NCBI RefSeq assembly: GCF_001971785.1 | Contig: NZ_CP019389.1 | Coordinates: 2,615,001 to 2,679,000 of the forward strand | Origin: Seonamhaeicola sp. S2-3 | GTDB lineage: Bacteria > Bacteroidota > Bacteroidia > Flavobacteriales > Flavobacteriaceae | DNA: 64,000 nt | Direction: 5' to 3' | Shown: one piece after another, positions 23,919 through 29,761 of the stretch | Layout of the letters: every line of letters starts with the position of its first letter | Numbering within the stretch: the first letter of the stretch is position 1 | The notes under the pieces: generated by a model | The model's input: only the letters and a program-made list of their open reading frames with translations | What the model was told of the DNA's origin: nothing | The model's database searches: none | Program-made: the position numbers and the translations under genes

Positions 23919-24185
23919 TTACTTCATTCTTCCAATAGCGCAACTTACAAAAGATTTTGCTTTTGTAGTTAGTGCATTTTTATCACCTAAAACCGGGTAA
24001 CCAATTTTAGCCAATAGTGTTTTGGCTTCGTCTAACACGGTGTCATTTTCATAAGAAAAAGATACTGTATTTTTTTCTGGGTTAACTTGTACATTGTTAA
24101 TTAAATCTAACCCTGATAGTTTAGAGGTAATTGTATTAGCACAACCACCACATTTTAAGTTTTGTATTTCTAAAGTTATTTCCAT
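23919..24185 (-). CDS. Heavy-metal-associated (HMA) domain protein
   Basis: An 88-residue soluble protein with a single HMA ferredoxin-like fold. The metal or thiol site is KCGGCANTI (Cys12 and Cys15), a variant of the usual GMxCxxC in which Met is replaced. An extra Cys near the end (VSCAIGRMK) is unusual. It is the last gene of the sulfur module, eight bases after the persulfide dioxygenase gene. In that context it could carry copper or a persulfide sulfur; which one is not decidable from sequence. Confidence 0.82.
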   Translation of the reverse strand: MEITLEIQNLKCGGCANTITSKLSGLDLINNVQVNPEKNTVSFSYENDTVLDEAKTLLAKIGYPVLGDKNALTTKAKSFVSCAIGRMK

Positions 24186-24193
24186 TGTTTAAT

Positions 24194-25603
24194 TTATAAA
24201 GTTGAAGGACAAACGTAATTAGTTTTTGGTAAATTGGTATTTTTAATATCAGTAAAACCACCTGCAACGTCAATTACATTAAAGCCTCTAGCTTTTAAAA
24301 TAGACGCAGCAATGACTGACCTGTAACCACCTGCACAATGCAAGTAGTATGTGGTTTTTTGGTCAATTAAATTCATGTTATCGTTTATGTAGTCTAGCGG
24401 GAAATGAAATACATTGTCACCTTCTATACGTTCAGATTTGTATTCTCCCTCTTTTCTTACATCTAAAATTTTTATATTGTTTTCTTCATTTCTTTTAGCT
24501 AACTCTTCGGCAGATATAGACTCCATAGTTTCAATATCTTTTTTGGCAACTTTCCAAGATTCAAACCCTCCTTTTAAATACCCCAAAGTATTGTCATAGC
24601 CAACACGCGATAATCGAGTTACGGTTTCTTTTTCTTTTCCTTCAGGAACAATCAACAAAATGGGTTGTTGTAAATCTGTAATTAAAGCACCTACCCATGG
24701 TGCAAAGGCACCATTAATTCCAATAAAAATAGAATTAGGAATATGTCCTTTTACAAACTGTTGCTCAGTTCTAACATCAAGAATTAAAGCACCTTCTTGA
24801 TTTGCTACTGTTTCAAACTCATCGGGGTTTAAAGCAACATCGCCTTTTTTTAGTACGGTATCAAAATCTGTGTAACCAGACTTATTCATCATGGCATTTT
24901 TAGCAAAATATTGAGGAGGAGGCAAAATACCATCAAGAACTTCTTTAATAAATTCTTCTTTTGTCATGTCTGCTCTAAGAGCGTAATTGGTTTTTTTCTG
25001 CTCACCTAAAACGCCAACGGTTTCTTTGCTTAAGTTTTTTCCGCAAGCAGAACCTGCACCATGAGCAGGATAAACAATAATGTTGTCTTCTAAGGGCATT
25101 ATTTTGTTTCGTAACGAATCATATAACATACCCGCTAAATCTTCTTTAGTTAAATCAGATTTAATAGCCAAATCTGGTCTTCCAACATCGCCTAAAAATA
25201 AGGTGTCTCCAGAAAAAATAGCATGGTTTTTTCCGTGTTCATCAATTAGTAGAAAGGTAGAAGATTCTAAAGTATGTCCTGGTGTATGTAGAACTTTTAT
25301 AGTAACATTCCCTAATTTAAAAGTTTCATTGTCTTTAGCTACATAGGCCTCATAATTTGTTTGGGCTTTTGGACCAAAAATTATAGTAGCCCCAGTTTTT
25401 TTTGCTAAATCTAAATGACCCGATACAAAATCTGCATGAAAATGAGTTTCAAATATATATTTAATTTTAGCATTTTCACTATTGGCTTTATCTACATATT
25501 GTTGTGTTTCGCGTAGTGGGTCAATAATTGCTACTTCGCCGTTAGACTCAATATAGTAAGCCCCTTGCGCTAAACACCCTGTATATATTTGTTCTATTTT
25601 CAT
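24194..25603 (-). CDS. Persulfide dioxygenase-rhodanese fusion (MBL fold + two rhodanese domains)
   Basis: A 469-residue cytoplasmic enzyme predicted to oxidise glutathione or low-molecular-weight persulfides to sulfite. The N-terminal metallo-beta-lactamase domain (about 1-235) has THFHADFVSGH, HTPGHTLES, FSGDTLFLGDVGRPDL and YPAHGAGS, matching ETHE1-like dioxygenases. Two rhodanese domains follow. The first (about 270-355) has no Cys at the active-site position (LLIVPEGKEKE), so it is probably structural. The second (about 370-465) keeps it (YLHCAGGYRS). The ATG at 25603 is preferred over one ten codons upstream. An inverted repeat TGTGAC-N4-GTCACA lies 57-72 bases upstream. Confidence 0.92.
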   Translation of the reverse strand: MKIEQIYTGCLAQGAYYIESNGEVAIIDPLRETQQYVDKANSENAKIKYIFETHFHADFVSGHLDLAKKTGATIIFGPKAQTNYEAYVAKDNETFKLGNVTIKVLHTPGHTLESSTFLLIDEHGKNHAIFSGDTLFLGDVGRPDLAIKSDLTKEDLAGMLYDSLRNKIMPLEDNIIVYPAHGAGSACGKNLSKETVGVLGEQKKTNYALRADMTKEEFIKEVLDGILPPPQYFAKNAMMNKSGYTDFDTVLKKGDVALNPDEFETVANQEGALILDVRTEQQFVKGHIPNSIFIGINGAFAPWVGALITDLQQPILLIVPEGKEKETVTRLSRVGYDNTLGYLKGGFESWKVAKKDIETMESISAEELAKRNEENNIKILDVRKEGEYKSERIEGDNVFHFPLDYINDNMNLIDQKTTYYLHCAGGYRSVIAASILKARGFNVIDVAGGFTDIKNTNLPKTNYVCPSTL

Positions 25604-25659
25604 TGTTAAGTTTAGTCTTAAAAAGTTTTGCAAAATTACAAAATAGTTAATGTTAATTC

Positions 25660-25675
25660 TGTGACTTTTGTCACA
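25660..25675. promoter_or_regulatory. Crp/Fnr-type operator upstream of the persulfide dioxygenase
   Basis: TGTGACTTTTGTCACA, a perfect 6-4-6 inverted repeat of the CRP/FNR kind (TGTGA-N6-TCACA). It lies between the TSUP stop and the dioxygenase ATG. A related repeat is at 27497-27512. Confidence 0.7.
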
Positions 25676-25681
25676 TTAGCG

Positions 25682-26476
25682 TTAGTTTGTTTCTCTGTAA
25701 ATAATATAAATAGCCATAATTAAAGTAAAAAAACCAAAGCTCTTTTTTAGCTTTTTACCGCTTATATATTTAGATAAAAATACGCCAATTAAAATACCTA
25801 AAACGGATGTTAAGGTGAATAAAATTAGGAATGTCCACTCTATTTCTAAAGTTTGAACATCACCTATAAAACCAATTAAGGAATTAATTGAAACTATAAT
25901 AAGTGATGTTCCAACTGCTTTTTTCATAGGAATATTGGCCCAAAGAACCAAAGCAGGAACGTATAAAAAACCTCCGCCAGCACCAATAATTCCTGTGATA
26001 GTTCCTATTATTAATCCTTGAATAAATGTTTTATAATAGGCTTGTTTTTCTTTTGAAGTTTTATTGCTTCTTTTATTTTTAATCATTGAAATGGAAGAAA
26101 TTAGCATGATAATAGAAAAGAATATCATGATTCCCATTTCTTTGGTTAGTGTTAAATTATTTCCTAAAGATAACAGTGTATCAGGTATATTAGGTACTAA
26201 AAAGCGTCTTGATAGATATACGGCAAGAAAAGAAGGGAATGAAAATGCTAATCCTGTTTTTATATCAACTAGCCCTTTTCTATACTTTTGAAAGGTTCCT
26301 ACTAACGATGTTGTGCCAACCACAAACAAAGAATACGCTGTTGCAATAATTGGGTTGTACCCCAAAAGATACACTAATAAAGGAACCGTTAAAATAGAAC
26401 CACCTCCACCAATAAGACCTAAAACTAAGCCAACAACTAAAGCGCCAATATATCCTAATATTAAGGTGTTATCCAT
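25682..26476 (-). CDS. TSUP (TauE/SafE) family sulfur-compound permease
   Basis: A 264-residue inner-membrane protein with about eight transmembrane helices in two similar halves. Each half starts with a glycine-rich motif (GLVLGLIGGGGSILTVPLLVY and GTITGIIGAGGGFLYVPALV), the TSUP hallmark. Members export sulfite or sulfoacetate, or move thiosulfate. Here it sits directly after the two-part YeeE/YedE transporter (no gap) and before the persulfide dioxygenase, so sulfite export is the likeliest role. Confidence 0.92.
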   Translation of the reverse strand: MDNTLILGYIGALVVGLVLGLIGGGGSILTVPLLVYLLGYNPIIATAYSLFVVGTTSLVGTFQKYRKGLVDIKTGLAFSFPSFLAVYLSRRFLVPNIPDTLLSLGNNLTLTKEMGIMIFFSIIMLISSISMIKNKRSNKTSKEKQAYYKTFIQGLIIGTITGIIGAGGGFLYVPALVLWANIPMKKAVGTSLIIVSINSLIGFIGDVQTLEIEWTFLILFTLTSVLGILIGVFLSKYISGKKLKKSFGFFTLIMAIYIIYRETN

Positions 26477-26890
26477 TTAGTGAGGTAATTTATCTTTTAT
26501 AACACCGTAAATAAAAGTGCCAACTAAAGCAGCGGCTATTACAATTATCATGCTATATACGCCAGTGCCTAATAAAATATACATAGGGCCAGGGCAGGCA
26601 CCTATTAAAGCCCAACCTAATCCAAAAATGATGCCTCCTAATATATATCTGGTAAATCCTTTTTCTTTTTTAGGAGCATCAATTTGTAATCCTTCTGTGT
26701 TTTTTAATTGTTTTCGTTTTGAAATTTGTAAAAAAATAACACCTGTAGCTATGGCTGTACCAATAATTCCATACATATGAAAAGATTGAAATCTGAACAT
26801 TTCGTATATGCGAAACCATGAAACAGCTTCAGACTTTACTAAAACAATTCCGAAGAAAATACCAATCAATAAAAATTTTAAATACTTCAT
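26477..26890 (-). CDS. YeeE/YedE-type transporter, second half (DUF6691-like)
   Basis: A 137-residue membrane protein with about four transmembrane helices. It contains GWALIGACPGPMYILLGTG, the conserved Cys-Pro-Gly-Pro motif of the C-terminal half of YeeE/YedE (TsuA) thiosulfate transporters. It starts three bases after the other half (26894-27451), with which it probably forms one transporter. The split into two proteins is usual in Bacteroidota, whereas E. coli has one chain. Confidence 0.9.
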   Translation of the reverse strand: MKYLKFLLIGIFFGIVLVKSEAVSWFRIYEMFRFQSFHMYGIIGTAIATGVIFLQISKRKQLKNTEGLQIDAPKKEKGFTRYILGGIIFGLGWALIGACPGPMYILLGTGVYSMIIVIAAALVGTFIYGVIKDKLPH

Positions 26891-26893
26891 ATG

Positions 26894-27451
26894 TTAAAAT
26901 ATTAGGGGTAAAATAAAATTGGTCATTATTAAGCCTCCAATAAAGAATCCAATAACAGCTATTAGAGATTGTTTTTGTAAACTACTAAGTCCGGTAATGG
27001 CATGACCCGAAGTGCATCCGCTAGCGTATCTGGTTCCAAAGCCCACTAACAAGCCTCCAATTATTAATAAAATTAATGACTTTATTGAGGTTAAGGCTTC
27101 AATAGAAAACATTTCGTTAGGTAAAAGTGTTGCTCCTGGATTTTCTAAACCTAAATCTTGTAGTTCTGCAATTGTGATTGGATTTAAATTTGTAGGTGTT
27201 TCATTTGAAAGAAATTGCGTAGCAATAAAACCTCCAATTATAGCACCTAAAACTACAATAAGATTCCATTTATGATCCTTCCAATTAAATTTAAAAAAGT
27301 CTGAAAATTTATTAGCTCCTAAAACGGTACACATGGTTCTGAGGTTAGAAGACATACCAAATGTTTTGCCAAAGTAGAGCAATAAAGCCATTACAAATGC
27401 AATTAGTGGTCCTGATATATACCAAGGCCACGGGTTTAAAATAATTTCCAT
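26894..27451 (-). CDS. YeeE/YedE-type transporter, first half
   Basis: A 185-residue membrane protein with about five transmembrane helices and the motif GFGTRYASGCTSGHAITGLS, the Cys-containing signature of the N-terminal half of YeeE/YedE thiosulfate or sulfane-sulfur transporters. A predicted periplasmic loop lies around residues 85-120. It is the first transporter gene of the module. An inverted repeat of Crp/Fnr type lies 46-61 bases upstream, between it and the regulator gene. Confidence 0.9.
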   Translation of the reverse strand: MEIILNPWPWYISGPLIAFVMALLLYFGKTFGMSSNLRTMCTVLGANKFSDFFKFNWKDHKWNLIVVLGAIIGGFIATQFLSNETPTNLNPITIAELQDLGLENPGATLLPNEMFSIEALTSIKSLILLIIGGLLVGFGTRYASGCTSGHAITGLSSLQKQSLIAVIGFFIGGLIMTNFILPLIF

Positions 27452-27496
27452 TTTTCTTTTTTTTAGTGTAAAAGTATGATGTTGTATAATGAGCTA

Positions 27497-27512
27497 TGTA
27501 ACAAATGTTACT
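27497..27512. promoter_or_regulatory. Crp/Fnr-type operator upstream of the transporter genes
   Basis: TGTAACAAATGTTACT contains a perfect GTAACA-AA-TGTTAC inverted repeat. It fits TGTRAC-N4-GTYACW, the same pattern as the repeat at 25660-25675. It touches the stop codon of the regulator gene and precedes the first YeeE/YedE half. Confidence 0.68.
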
Positions 27513-28147
27513 TAAGTAGGGAGAATTTTAATTTTGTTTCTACCAAGTTGTATTTTTTTCTCATTTTCTAACTGTTTTAAAAGACGCGATATTACCACAC
27601 GAGATGAATGTAAGTCTTCGGCAATATCTTGGTGTTTTATTAAAATAGTATCAGAGTCATTAAGCATTGCTTTGTTTACTAAGTATTTATATAAACGCTC
27701 ATCCATTTTAAGAAACGCAATACTATCAATAGCATCTAGCATTTCATCAAATCTTGTTTGGTAGCTTTCTAAAATAAAATTCCGCCAACTTTCATTAATA
27801 TGAAACCATTCTTGCATTTTTTGAACAGGAATCATTATAAGCGTAGAGTCTTGTTCTGCCACCGCTCTAATTTTACTTTTTGATGTTCCCATGCAGCAGG
27901 TTAAAGACATGGTACAAGTTTCGCCAGCTTCTAAAAAGTAAATGAGCAAATCATTTCCTTCATCATCTTCTCTTAAAATTTTAATGTTTCCACTTAATAA
28001 TAGCGGGATGTGTAGCATGGGTTGGTTAATATCAATAATGATATCATCTTTAGAAAATGATTTAAATATGCCAACTTCTGATATTTCATCAATAAGATTC
28101 TTATCTAAGATGTAGTTAAATTTTTGGTACAGTATTTCTTTATCCAT
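27512..28147 (-). CDS. Crp/Fnr-family transcriptional regulator
   Basis: A 211-residue regulator. The cyclic-nucleotide-binding-like domain (about 1-125) does not keep the cAMP-binding Arg-Ser pair. It instead has three closely spaced cysteines (Cys78, Cys84, Cys85 in GETCTMSLTCCMG), which could sense persulfide or oxidant or hold a cofactor. The winged helix-turn-helix is at the C-terminus (IKHQDIAEDLHSSRVVISRLLKQLE). It heads the sulfur module, and two matching inverted repeats lie in the module's promoter regions, so it is the likely controller. It is divergent from tRNA-Arg. Confidence 0.9.
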   Translation of the reverse strand: MDKEILYQKFNYILDKNLIDEISEVGIFKSFSKDDIIIDINQPMLHIPLLLSGNIKILREDDEGNDLLIYFLEAGETCTMSLTCCMGTSKSKIRAVAEQDSTLIMIPVQKMQEWFHINESWRNFILESYQTRFDEMLDAIDSIAFLKMDERLYKYLVNKAMLNDSDTILIKHQDIAEDLHSSRVVISRLLKQLENEKKIQLGRNKIKILPT

Positions 28148-28228: not shown

Positions 28229-28302
28229 GGCCACGTGGCGCAACTGAATAGCGCATCTGATTACGGCTCAGAAGGTTGCAGGTTTGAATCCTGCCGTGGT
28301 CA
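28229..28302 (+). tRNA. tRNA-Arg (anticodon ACG)
   Basis: A 74-nt cloverleaf. The acceptor arm GGCCACG pairs with CGTGGTC. The anticodon stem TCTGA/TCAGA encloses TTACGGC with ACG at 28263-28265, and the T arm contains GGTTTGAATCC. The 3' CCA is not encoded. The adenosine at position 34 would be edited to inosine. Confidence 0.97.
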
Positions 28303-28304
28303 CT

Positions 28305-28395: not shown

Positions 28396-29331
28396 TTAAG
28401 AATATAATTTAATCAAGCGATATAAGAAGTATTCCGTATTCCTGACTCCCCTAAATTGAGATCTAAAAGCCTTTACTTTGGCATTAAAGGATTCAGCTGA
28501 AGCATTAGTACTTCTGTTTATAAAATAGTTGAGTACAGAGCGGTAATTTAAAGTAATACTATTGGCTACCGTTTGGAAGCTCTTAAATCCTGACTCCTCT
28601 ACATCTTTGTACCAGTGGGCTAGTTTGGTGTAAGCTACTTTAATATCTATGGCTTGGTTAAAAATATTCCTCAAGCCTTGAACAAGTCCATAAGCTTTCT
28701 TTAATTCTGGGTATTCATTAAACAATATCTGTCCCCTCTCTTTCTGATTTGGAGTCCATTTATCTGGGGATTTATACAGTAGATATCTACTCCTGGCCAG
28801 GAGTTGTTTTGAGCTATCACCATTAGAAAAAGTTACAGGTTTAAATTCTTTGTCGGCAGCTCTAGATAGCTTTATCTGTTCATTTTCTTGATCCAAAGCT
28901 TCCCATCGGTATTTGATACGAAGATCTTGGAGCGCCTCTATTGCCAGCTTCTGTACATGGAACCTGTCTGTTACTTGGATGGCTTTCGGGAAACATTTAG
29001 TGGAGATTGTTTTCATAGAGTTTGCCATGTCTAAGGTAATCTCTTTCACTTTAGCACGCTTCTTTGCTGGGATCTTCAAGAGTTGTTCGATAATAGGCTC
29101 CACTTTAGTTCCGTGGAATATCCCAACTAAAGCCCCTTTCTTTCCTTTGGCCTTCTTATTGGTAATGATGGTATAGAGCTCTCCCCTGGACAGCGCTGTC
29201 TCATCAATGGATAAATAAGAACCTAAGTTTTCAGGGAAAACAAGCCACTGTTTAGCATGACTCTTATGCTCCCATTGCTTAAAATCACTTAAGTGATCCT
29301 TATAATGTCTTTGAAGCCTTTTTCCGGACAT
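28396..29331 (-). CDS. ISL3-type DDE transposase, main domain (IS copy 2)
   Basis: A 311-residue transposase identical to that of copy 1 except for Arg in ALSRGEL. The same candidate DDE residues are present (SIDET, DMANSM/TDRFHVQ, AESFNAK). The frame is open upstream of its first ATG to 29388 and overlaps the end of the N-terminal frame. The reading frame is intact, so the element may be active. Confidence 0.92.
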   Translation of the reverse strand: MSGKRLQRHYKDHLSDFKQWEHKSHAKQWLVFPENLGSYLSIDETALSRGELYTIITNKKAKGKKGALVGIFHGTKVEPIIEQLLKIPAKKRAKVKEITLDMANSMKTISTKCFPKAIQVTDRFHVQKLAIEALQDLRIKYRWEALDQENEQIKLSRAADKEFKPVTFSNGDSSKQLLARSRYLLYKSPDKWTPNQKERGQILFNEYPELKKAYGLVQGLRNIFNQAIDIKVAYTKLAHWYKDVEESGFKSFQTVANSITLNYRSVLNYFINRSTNASAESFNAKVKAFRSQFRGVRNTEYFLYRLIKLYS

Positions 29332-29374: not shown

Positions 29375-29761
29375 TCAGTCGATTTCTTTTAAAAAAGCAG
29401 CAAACTCTTTTGATATTCGAGTTCCCTGTGCAATAAATTCATCCCATTCACGACTTACTTTAATCCTCTTTTTATCAAGTAGAACGTCCCAACGCCTTCG
29501 TTTAAGATTTAATGATAGTAGATTGTCTCGAACGGGATAATCCTCGATTATTCGAGGCTCCATGAAGCCACTGGCTTTATACTTGCAATCCTTGTACTTA
29601 GATGGTATTTGTTTTTTCTCCTCCAAATATATCGTTAGACGGTTCTCATATAAAACATGCTTTATAGGCTTCTTATCGAATCCAACAATATCAAAATACT
29701 CTAATATTCCTTCTGGTAATATTAAACTTAACAAGGATAACTCAGTGTCTTTATTCATCAA
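29375..29761 (-). CDS. ISAon1-type transposase N-terminal region (IS copy 2)
   Basis: A 128-residue protein identical to that encoded at 5912-6298. It ends just after a T6A4 run on its coding strand, where the downstream transposase frame opens one base out of register. Confidence 0.85.
   Translation of the reverse strand: MMNKDTELSLLSLILPEGILEYFDIVGFDKKPIKHVLYENRLTIYLEEKKQIPSKYKDCKYKASGFMEPRIIEDYPVRDNLLSLNLKRRRWDVLLDKKRIKVSREWDEFIAQGTRISKEFAAFLKEID

Follow-up and report, generated by a model that had tools for sequence, protein, structure and literature searches.

Introduction

Sulfane-sulfur sensors described in the portions of the literature available to us are of the CsoR-like, ArsR, sigma-54-dependent and MarR types (e.g., CstR, BigR/SqrR and FisR). 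BigR is of the ArsR type, and CstB, encoded in the operon controlled by CstR, has a two-rhodanese layout. Here we describe a locus of Seonamhaeicola sp. S2-3, whose genome is a single contig of 3.75 Mb, in which a Crp/Fnr-family regulator (hereafter REG), a split YeeE/YedE transporter, a TauE permease, a persulfide dioxygenase-rhodanese and an HMA-domain protein are accompanied by two operators of one design; the locus lies in a stretch of 64 kb, the whole of which we call the window. REG is quite probably a dedicated Crp/Fnr activator of a sulfur regulon, its signal most likely being sulfane sulfur perceived via C78, C84 and C85.

The closest described systems each share part of this arrangement. 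In Acinetobacter baumannii, BigR is reported to control a yeeE-yedE-pdo2 operon (PMC7315123), and as there described a YeeE-type transporter and a persulfide dioxygenase stand under a persulfide-sensing regulator, as we propose here; BigR represses, however, whereas REG is of the Crp/Fnr type with the site geometry of an activator, and its proposed regulon takes in more genes, among them SQR, reported to be under FisR control in A. baumannii. The CstR/cst operon of Staphylococcus aureus (tauE, cstA, cstB, sqr) is likewise reported to place TauE, SQR and a dioxygenase-sulfurtransferase under one regulator (PMC5480029), but CstR is a CsoR-like repressor, while the genes of the REG system are dispersed, have operators of their own and include a split YeeE. 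FisR of Cupriavidus pinatubonensis is described as a reactive-sulfur-responsive activator with three conserved cysteines (PMC9774590), which likens it to REG, but it acts via sigma-54, whereas REG is from a different protein family and its promoters have the ordinary Bacteroidota -7 box. A full-text literature search returned no Crp/Fnr persulfide regulon in Bacteroidota among the matches listed, with most subscription papers outside its scope and the slash spelling perhaps unmatched.

Results

The genes and promoter elements of the locus are as follows, in window coordinates, with operator sequences in minus-strand reading (E, expectation value; nt, nucleotides).

27512..28147, minus strand: REG, Crp/Fnr-family regulator, 211 amino acids (Pfam cNMP_binding and HTH_Crp_2)
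27497..27512, no strand: operator 1, AGTAACATTTGTTACA (own-genome profile match, E 2.3e-4)
27469..27476, minus strand: predicted -7 box TACTTTTA, 20 nt downstream of operator 1 (box search)
26894..27451, minus strand: YeeE/YedE half A (Pfam Sulf_transp; weak match to 6leo)
26477..26890, minus strand: YeeE/YedE half B (Pfam DUF6691 and Sulf_transp)
25682..26476, minus strand: TauE/TSUP permease, probable sulfite or thiosulfate exporter (Pfam TauE)
25660..25675, no strand: operator 2, TGTGACAAAAGTCACA (best own-genome profile match, E 1.4e-5)
25631..25638, minus strand: predicted -7 box TAATTTTG, 21 nt downstream of operator 2 (box search)
24194..25603, minus strand: persulfide dioxygenase with two rhodanese domains, ATG start (Pfam Lactamase_B and two Rhodanese stretches)
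23919..24185, minus strand: HMA-domain protein, final gene of the dioxygenase operon (Pfam HMA)

A first-pass annotation had assigned six minus-strand genes to these families and placed two 16-bp inverted repeats among them. The gene set, on which open reading frames (ORFs) and Pfam agree, and the repeats, which lie exactly at 27497-27512 and 25660-25675, both stand; the dioxygenase start of its ORF list does not, and TTG 25633, which falls within the predicted -7 box at 25631-25638, should be replaced by ATG 25603 (469 amino acids). Operator 1 shares the final base of the REG stop codon. The motif TGTRACNNNNGTYACW occurs without mismatch in three rows, at two places, in the window, against a mean of 0.07 in 100 dinucleotide shuffles, none of which attains three.

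The repeats are conserved at orthologous genes, the point on which the first-pass annotation had staked its reading. Allowing up to two mismatches, we found an operator behind REG in 24 of the 32 loci from relatives, and 18 of their 21 full-length dioxygenase genes are preceded by one (the L049 gene, whose site lies beyond the 160 nt examined, is scored as a miss), and the distance to the -7 box is fixed: a TAnnTTTG box with at most one mismatch is found in 41 of the relatives' 42 promoters, 21 nt behind the operator in 33 and 20 nt in eight, so that it begins 29.5 and 28.5 nt from the operator centre, respectively; the remaining promoter has a box only with two mismatches. An operator centre at about -41.5 is the class II activator place of CRP, FNR and NtcA. 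The Flavobacterium johnsoniae -7 box is reported to begin at -12 (PMC6847099), and with the start position borrowed from that species the 21-nt spacing puts the operator centre at -41.5; this position and the constant separation from the -7 element are class II geometry. Because the -33 element is described in the same source as generally weak in F. johnsoniae, a missing -33 box alone is no argument.

We considered separate regulators for operator 2 (TGTGAC, CRP-like) and operator 1 (TGTAAC, NtcA-like) but do not favour them, because the two forms share the -7 spacing within the same genomes; that one regulator would serve both window operators is well supported. The perfect form TGTAAC-N4-GTTACA proved too strict a pattern, being absent from this genome and present in 26 of 59 genomes overall.

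The REG protein belongs to the Crp/Fnr superfamily: PF00027 and PF13545 exceed their gathering scores, and CRP, NtcA and DNR structures are among the top 50 fold matches of its model (mean predicted local distance difference test score, pLDDT, 88.6; predicted template modelling score, pTM, 0.64). It has in common with NtcA and Escherichia coli CRP the fold, an NtcA-like reading helix and the class II site position; unlike them it carries cysteines in the sensor domain, and it is neither NtcA nor CRP proper, scoring under both NCBIfam equivalog cut-offs (44.0 vs 244.95 and 42.4 vs 266 bits, respectively). The cysteines form a C78-x5-C84-C85 array, and in an alignment of 110 proteins, which supersedes a regular-expression tally of the three (72 of 77 loci), C78 is retained in 110, C84 in 108 and C85 in 107. 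Conserved cysteines of this kind, which might react, would suit a persulfide-responsive regulator. The best sequence relative in the PDB (E 2.3e-23), the Eubacterium rectale Crp/Fnr protein 3dv8, carries a C-x5-C pair aligned with C78 and C84, like REG, but comes from a Firmicute and lacks a counterpart of C85.

The reading helix, S-R183-V184-V-I-S-R188, is equally constant (R183 and R188 in all 110 proteins, V184 in 109). Its R-V-x3-R pattern resembles that of NtcA in the alignment, and NtcA's target, GTA-N8-TAC, fits TGTAAC-N4-GTTACA. E184 replaces V184 in a single REG, that of L086 and L200 (genome G058); CRP has E at this place, and one yeeE operator of G058 reads TGTGAC-GTCACA, hinting at a joint change of helix and site in what is a single case, from a genome with three REG-like matches. 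REG relatives at E up to 0.001, some of them distant, occur in 48 of 59 genomes (this one included); among named records the nearest come from uncultured Flavobacteriaceae, Algibacter and Tamlana (73-77% identical for the last two), a listing that may omit records very close to the window's own.

Searching the whole genome with the motif, as the first-pass annotation had suggested, located further operators before other sulfur genes. The strict pattern gave 14 rows at 11 places against 7 rows in a reversed control, and a TAnnTTTR box with at most one mismatch stands 20-21 nt downstream at 11 of 11 places, without mismatch at 10, where the background in four regions of the genome is 2.9% per position (0.28% for a perfect box). 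The nine strict places outside the window belong to an SQR-like gene, a peroxiredoxin (Prx), a rhodanese, two c-type cytochromes, TolC-RND, ArsR-ArsP, DUF983 and a TonB receptor, and a weaker operator precedes OsmC-cydAB. Pfam supports the SQR-like flavoprotein (Pyr_redox_2), peroxiredoxin, OsmC, cytochrome B, TolC (OEP), rhodanese, ArsR, ArsP_1 and DUF983; CydAB, HlyD, RND, cytochrome A, TonB, DUF3365 and thioredoxin (Trx) were named by eye. The SQR assignment is a prediction from its similarity to solved SQRs (3sz0, E 6.7e-33, residues 2-291). At the TonB receptor the operator and a perfect -7 box (G000:C1 2583543, L011) are followed by a leader of about 440 nt, the receptor is divergent from a periplasmic-binding-type gene, and the operator is also found in G004 (L187).

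A profile trained on 40 relatives' promoters, with own-genome sites excluded (L054_reg and L077_reg, two of the 42, are absent from its alignment under no preset rule, and L054_reg has a good -7 box), returned operators at its top eight distinct places in this genome: dioxygenase (E 1.4e-5), ArsR (2.2e-4) and yeeE (2.3e-4), then two sites at 527-528 kb, OsmC, TonB and SQR (0.025). Matches at 3574585, 398407, 2122157 and 546326 fall within called ORFs and were rejected as noise. Among genomes outside the training set, a match at E<0.01 was found in 7 of 14 with REG vs 0 of 11 without it, and best E values also separated the two groups (Mann-Whitney p 0.012, relatedness ignored). The genomes without REG are mostly small and from other families, and the comparison supports rather than decides. 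Five genomes with distant REG-like matches weaker than 1e-40 (G016, G038, G041, G047, G055) were not counted, of which only G016 (1.6e-4) has a match at E<0.01, nor was G011, a genome that contributed no promoter to the profile alignment and whose best E (3.8e-4) falls on the REG side.

A further set of 77 named loci (908 kb; 80 before the duplicates L214, L222 and L266 were removed by eye) was surveyed with at most one mismatch, counting both strands, so that a palindrome gives two rows. The count was 232 operator rows, where the reversed sequence gave 16 and five mononucleotide shuffles gave 12-18, and the -7 box stood at 21 nt 88 times vs 3-15 times at every other spacing from 0 to 39. Operator and box together precede 35 of 67 dioxygenase-labelled genes (labelled by BLAST, single rhodaneses included) vs 11 of 560 unlabelled genes, a few of which also look sulfur-related by eye (a rhodanese, an SQR-like flavoprotein); for other labels the fractions are 19/57 (TauE), 5/28 (YeeE-A), 0/29 (YeeE-B), 5/10 (DUF3365), 3/8 (TolC) and 2/4 (Prx). 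Downstream of REG the labelled genes are mainly TauE, dioxygenase and YeeE; some loci also have rhodanese, SQR and CydAB there. Relatives of the SQR, CydAB, Prx, rhodanese and TolC-RND genes that are dispersed in this genome, and likewise of DUF3365-Trx, stand downstream of REG in some other genera. At L070:6459-8648 transposase-like ORFs lie directly upstream of DUF3365-thioredoxin, genes that adjoin REG in other genera, and an insertion may have separated this pair from an operator.

Among forty regions round relatives' profile matches, picked by hand from the matches listed, the gene or operon downstream of the site is DUF983 in five cases, TolC-HlyD-RND in three, the ArsR operon in two and CydA and TonB in one each, besides further dioxygenase and YeeE genes; some regions (e.g., L196, L199, L203) have no convincing target. 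In two genomes (L184, L201) an operator stands before a ferredoxin-NADP reductase-like gene and a ferredoxin (names by eye). Close SQR genes have a site (up to two mismatches) and box (up to one) in 6 of 8 genomes, this one included; the six same-genus genomes yielded no SQR at E up to 1e-60. For the ArsP operon a site was found in 4 of 7 genomes (own included), one of them weak. The best DUF983 relative, matched in 22 of 30 genomes, is preceded by a site in 13 of 19 genomes with REG vs 0 of 3 without it, a comparison confounded by the three REG-less copies being 39-45% identical and by equally distant copies in REG genomes also being site-free.

The dioxygenase joins a metallo-beta-lactamase and two rhodanese domains in one chain, the CstB-type layout, and matches 3tp9 (E 6.8e-63, residues 3-453) and 3r2u (E 9.2e-55, residues 3-454), the latter presumably CstB, over nearly its full length. 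Both YeeE halves have the Sulf_transp domain, though at 35.9 and 18.9 bits, against an NCBIfam cut-off of 400, neither is identified as TsuA, and the match of half A to the Sulf_transp structure 6leo is weak (E 0.0011). Between REG and two transposase-like ORFs on the minus strand (28396-29331 and 29375-29761, with near-identical ORFs near 2.122 Mb of the genome, L131) lies a plus-strand tRNA-Arg(acg) at 28229-28303.

Discussion

The sulfur/persulfide regulon proposed in the first-pass annotation is supported, while binding, inducer and transport direction are what we infer from sequence. There is a strong case that REG would bind the operators, a good one that it would activate transcription and a moderate one that its signal would be sulfane sulfur acting through C78/C84/C85. 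In the reading that we favour, a REG dimer would bind TGTRAC-N4-GTYACA operators centred near -41.5, would bring RNA polymerase to promoters carrying a TAnnTTTG -7 box 20-21 nt downstream, and on sensing persulfide or polysulfide through the three cysteines would switch on the split YeeE/YedE with TauE and the dioxygenase-rhodanese with HMA. Outside the window the predicted targets are SQR, the peroxiredoxin, OsmC (probably with cytochrome bd), the rhodanese, c-type cytochromes, the TolC-RND efflux system, the ArsR-Trx-OsmC-ArsP operon and DUF983. Judging from their families, SQR would yield persulfide from sulfide, the dioxygenase would turn the persulfide into sulfite, and sulfite or thiosulfate would leave the cell through TauE. 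An importing YeeE, with thiosulfate or sulfane sulfur as its possible substrate, would be a surprising member of a detoxifying set.

Several observations weigh against REG as the activator of such a regulon. At the thresholds used, no site is seen behind REG in 8 of the 32 regulator loci or in 34 of the 77 loci; in the window the motif with up to two mismatches is no commoner than chance (29 rows vs 27.4) and was therefore not relied on alone; and the strict pattern by itself is only twofold above its reversed control across the genome. In the profile search two noise places outrank Prx (E 0.09) and cytochrome A (0.24), three outrank the rhodanese (0.98), and the DUF983 match (3.3) is inside the noise. 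No site accompanies SQR in G036 or G051, and in the 77 loci operator and box directly precede only 1 of 6 SQR-labelled and 0 of 6 CydA-labelled genes. Finally, the REG-like proteins of L082 and L087 lack C84 and C85, and that of L078 lacks C85. L082 and L087 precede YeeE halves, with no dioxygenase seen within those stretches, and are perhaps a branch responding to a different signal.

Repressor sites tend to vary more in position than activator sites, and here the operator leaves the -7 box and start site uncovered and keeps a constant 20-21 nt from the box, the class II activator place. It is thus distinctly improbable that REG is a repressor released by persulfidation, as CstR and BigR are, even though those two are reported to repress comparable gene sets (PMC5480029, PMC7315123). 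Occupation of the sites by another Crp/Fnr protein is very improbable: the genome does encode four HTH_Crp_2 proteins, but only REG among them has the R-V-x3-R helix (by eye), and profile matches track the presence of REG.

Alternatively, REG could own the regulon yet sense redox state, nitric oxide, a metal or oxygen, the sulfur genes being part of a wider stress response. TolC-RND, ArsR-ArsP, HMA, DUF983 and the TonB receptor, which are not obviously sulfur genes, would be accommodated in this way, but the prevalence of TauE, dioxygenase and YeeE, with some rhodanese, SQR and CydAB, after REG in the 77 loci makes a signal of this kind unlikely. As for an activator responsive to sulfane sulfur, we lean slightly towards a broader proposal, that REG represents a further structural class of sulfane-sulfur sensor, a three-cysteine persulfide switch in a cyclic-nucleotide-type domain, and in much of Flavobacteriaceae would act as master regulator of the handling of sulfide and persulfide, with cytochrome bd, the RND pump and DUF983 under its control.

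The operator linked to REG offers a functional lead for DUF983 (L007:1582-1980 and relatives), a membrane protein of unknown function, and the rule of an operator followed after 20-21 nt by a -7 box would predict targets in new genomes. If REG acts as proposed, a Crp/Fnr activator would explain the control of sulfide and polysulfide oxidation in many flavobacteria.

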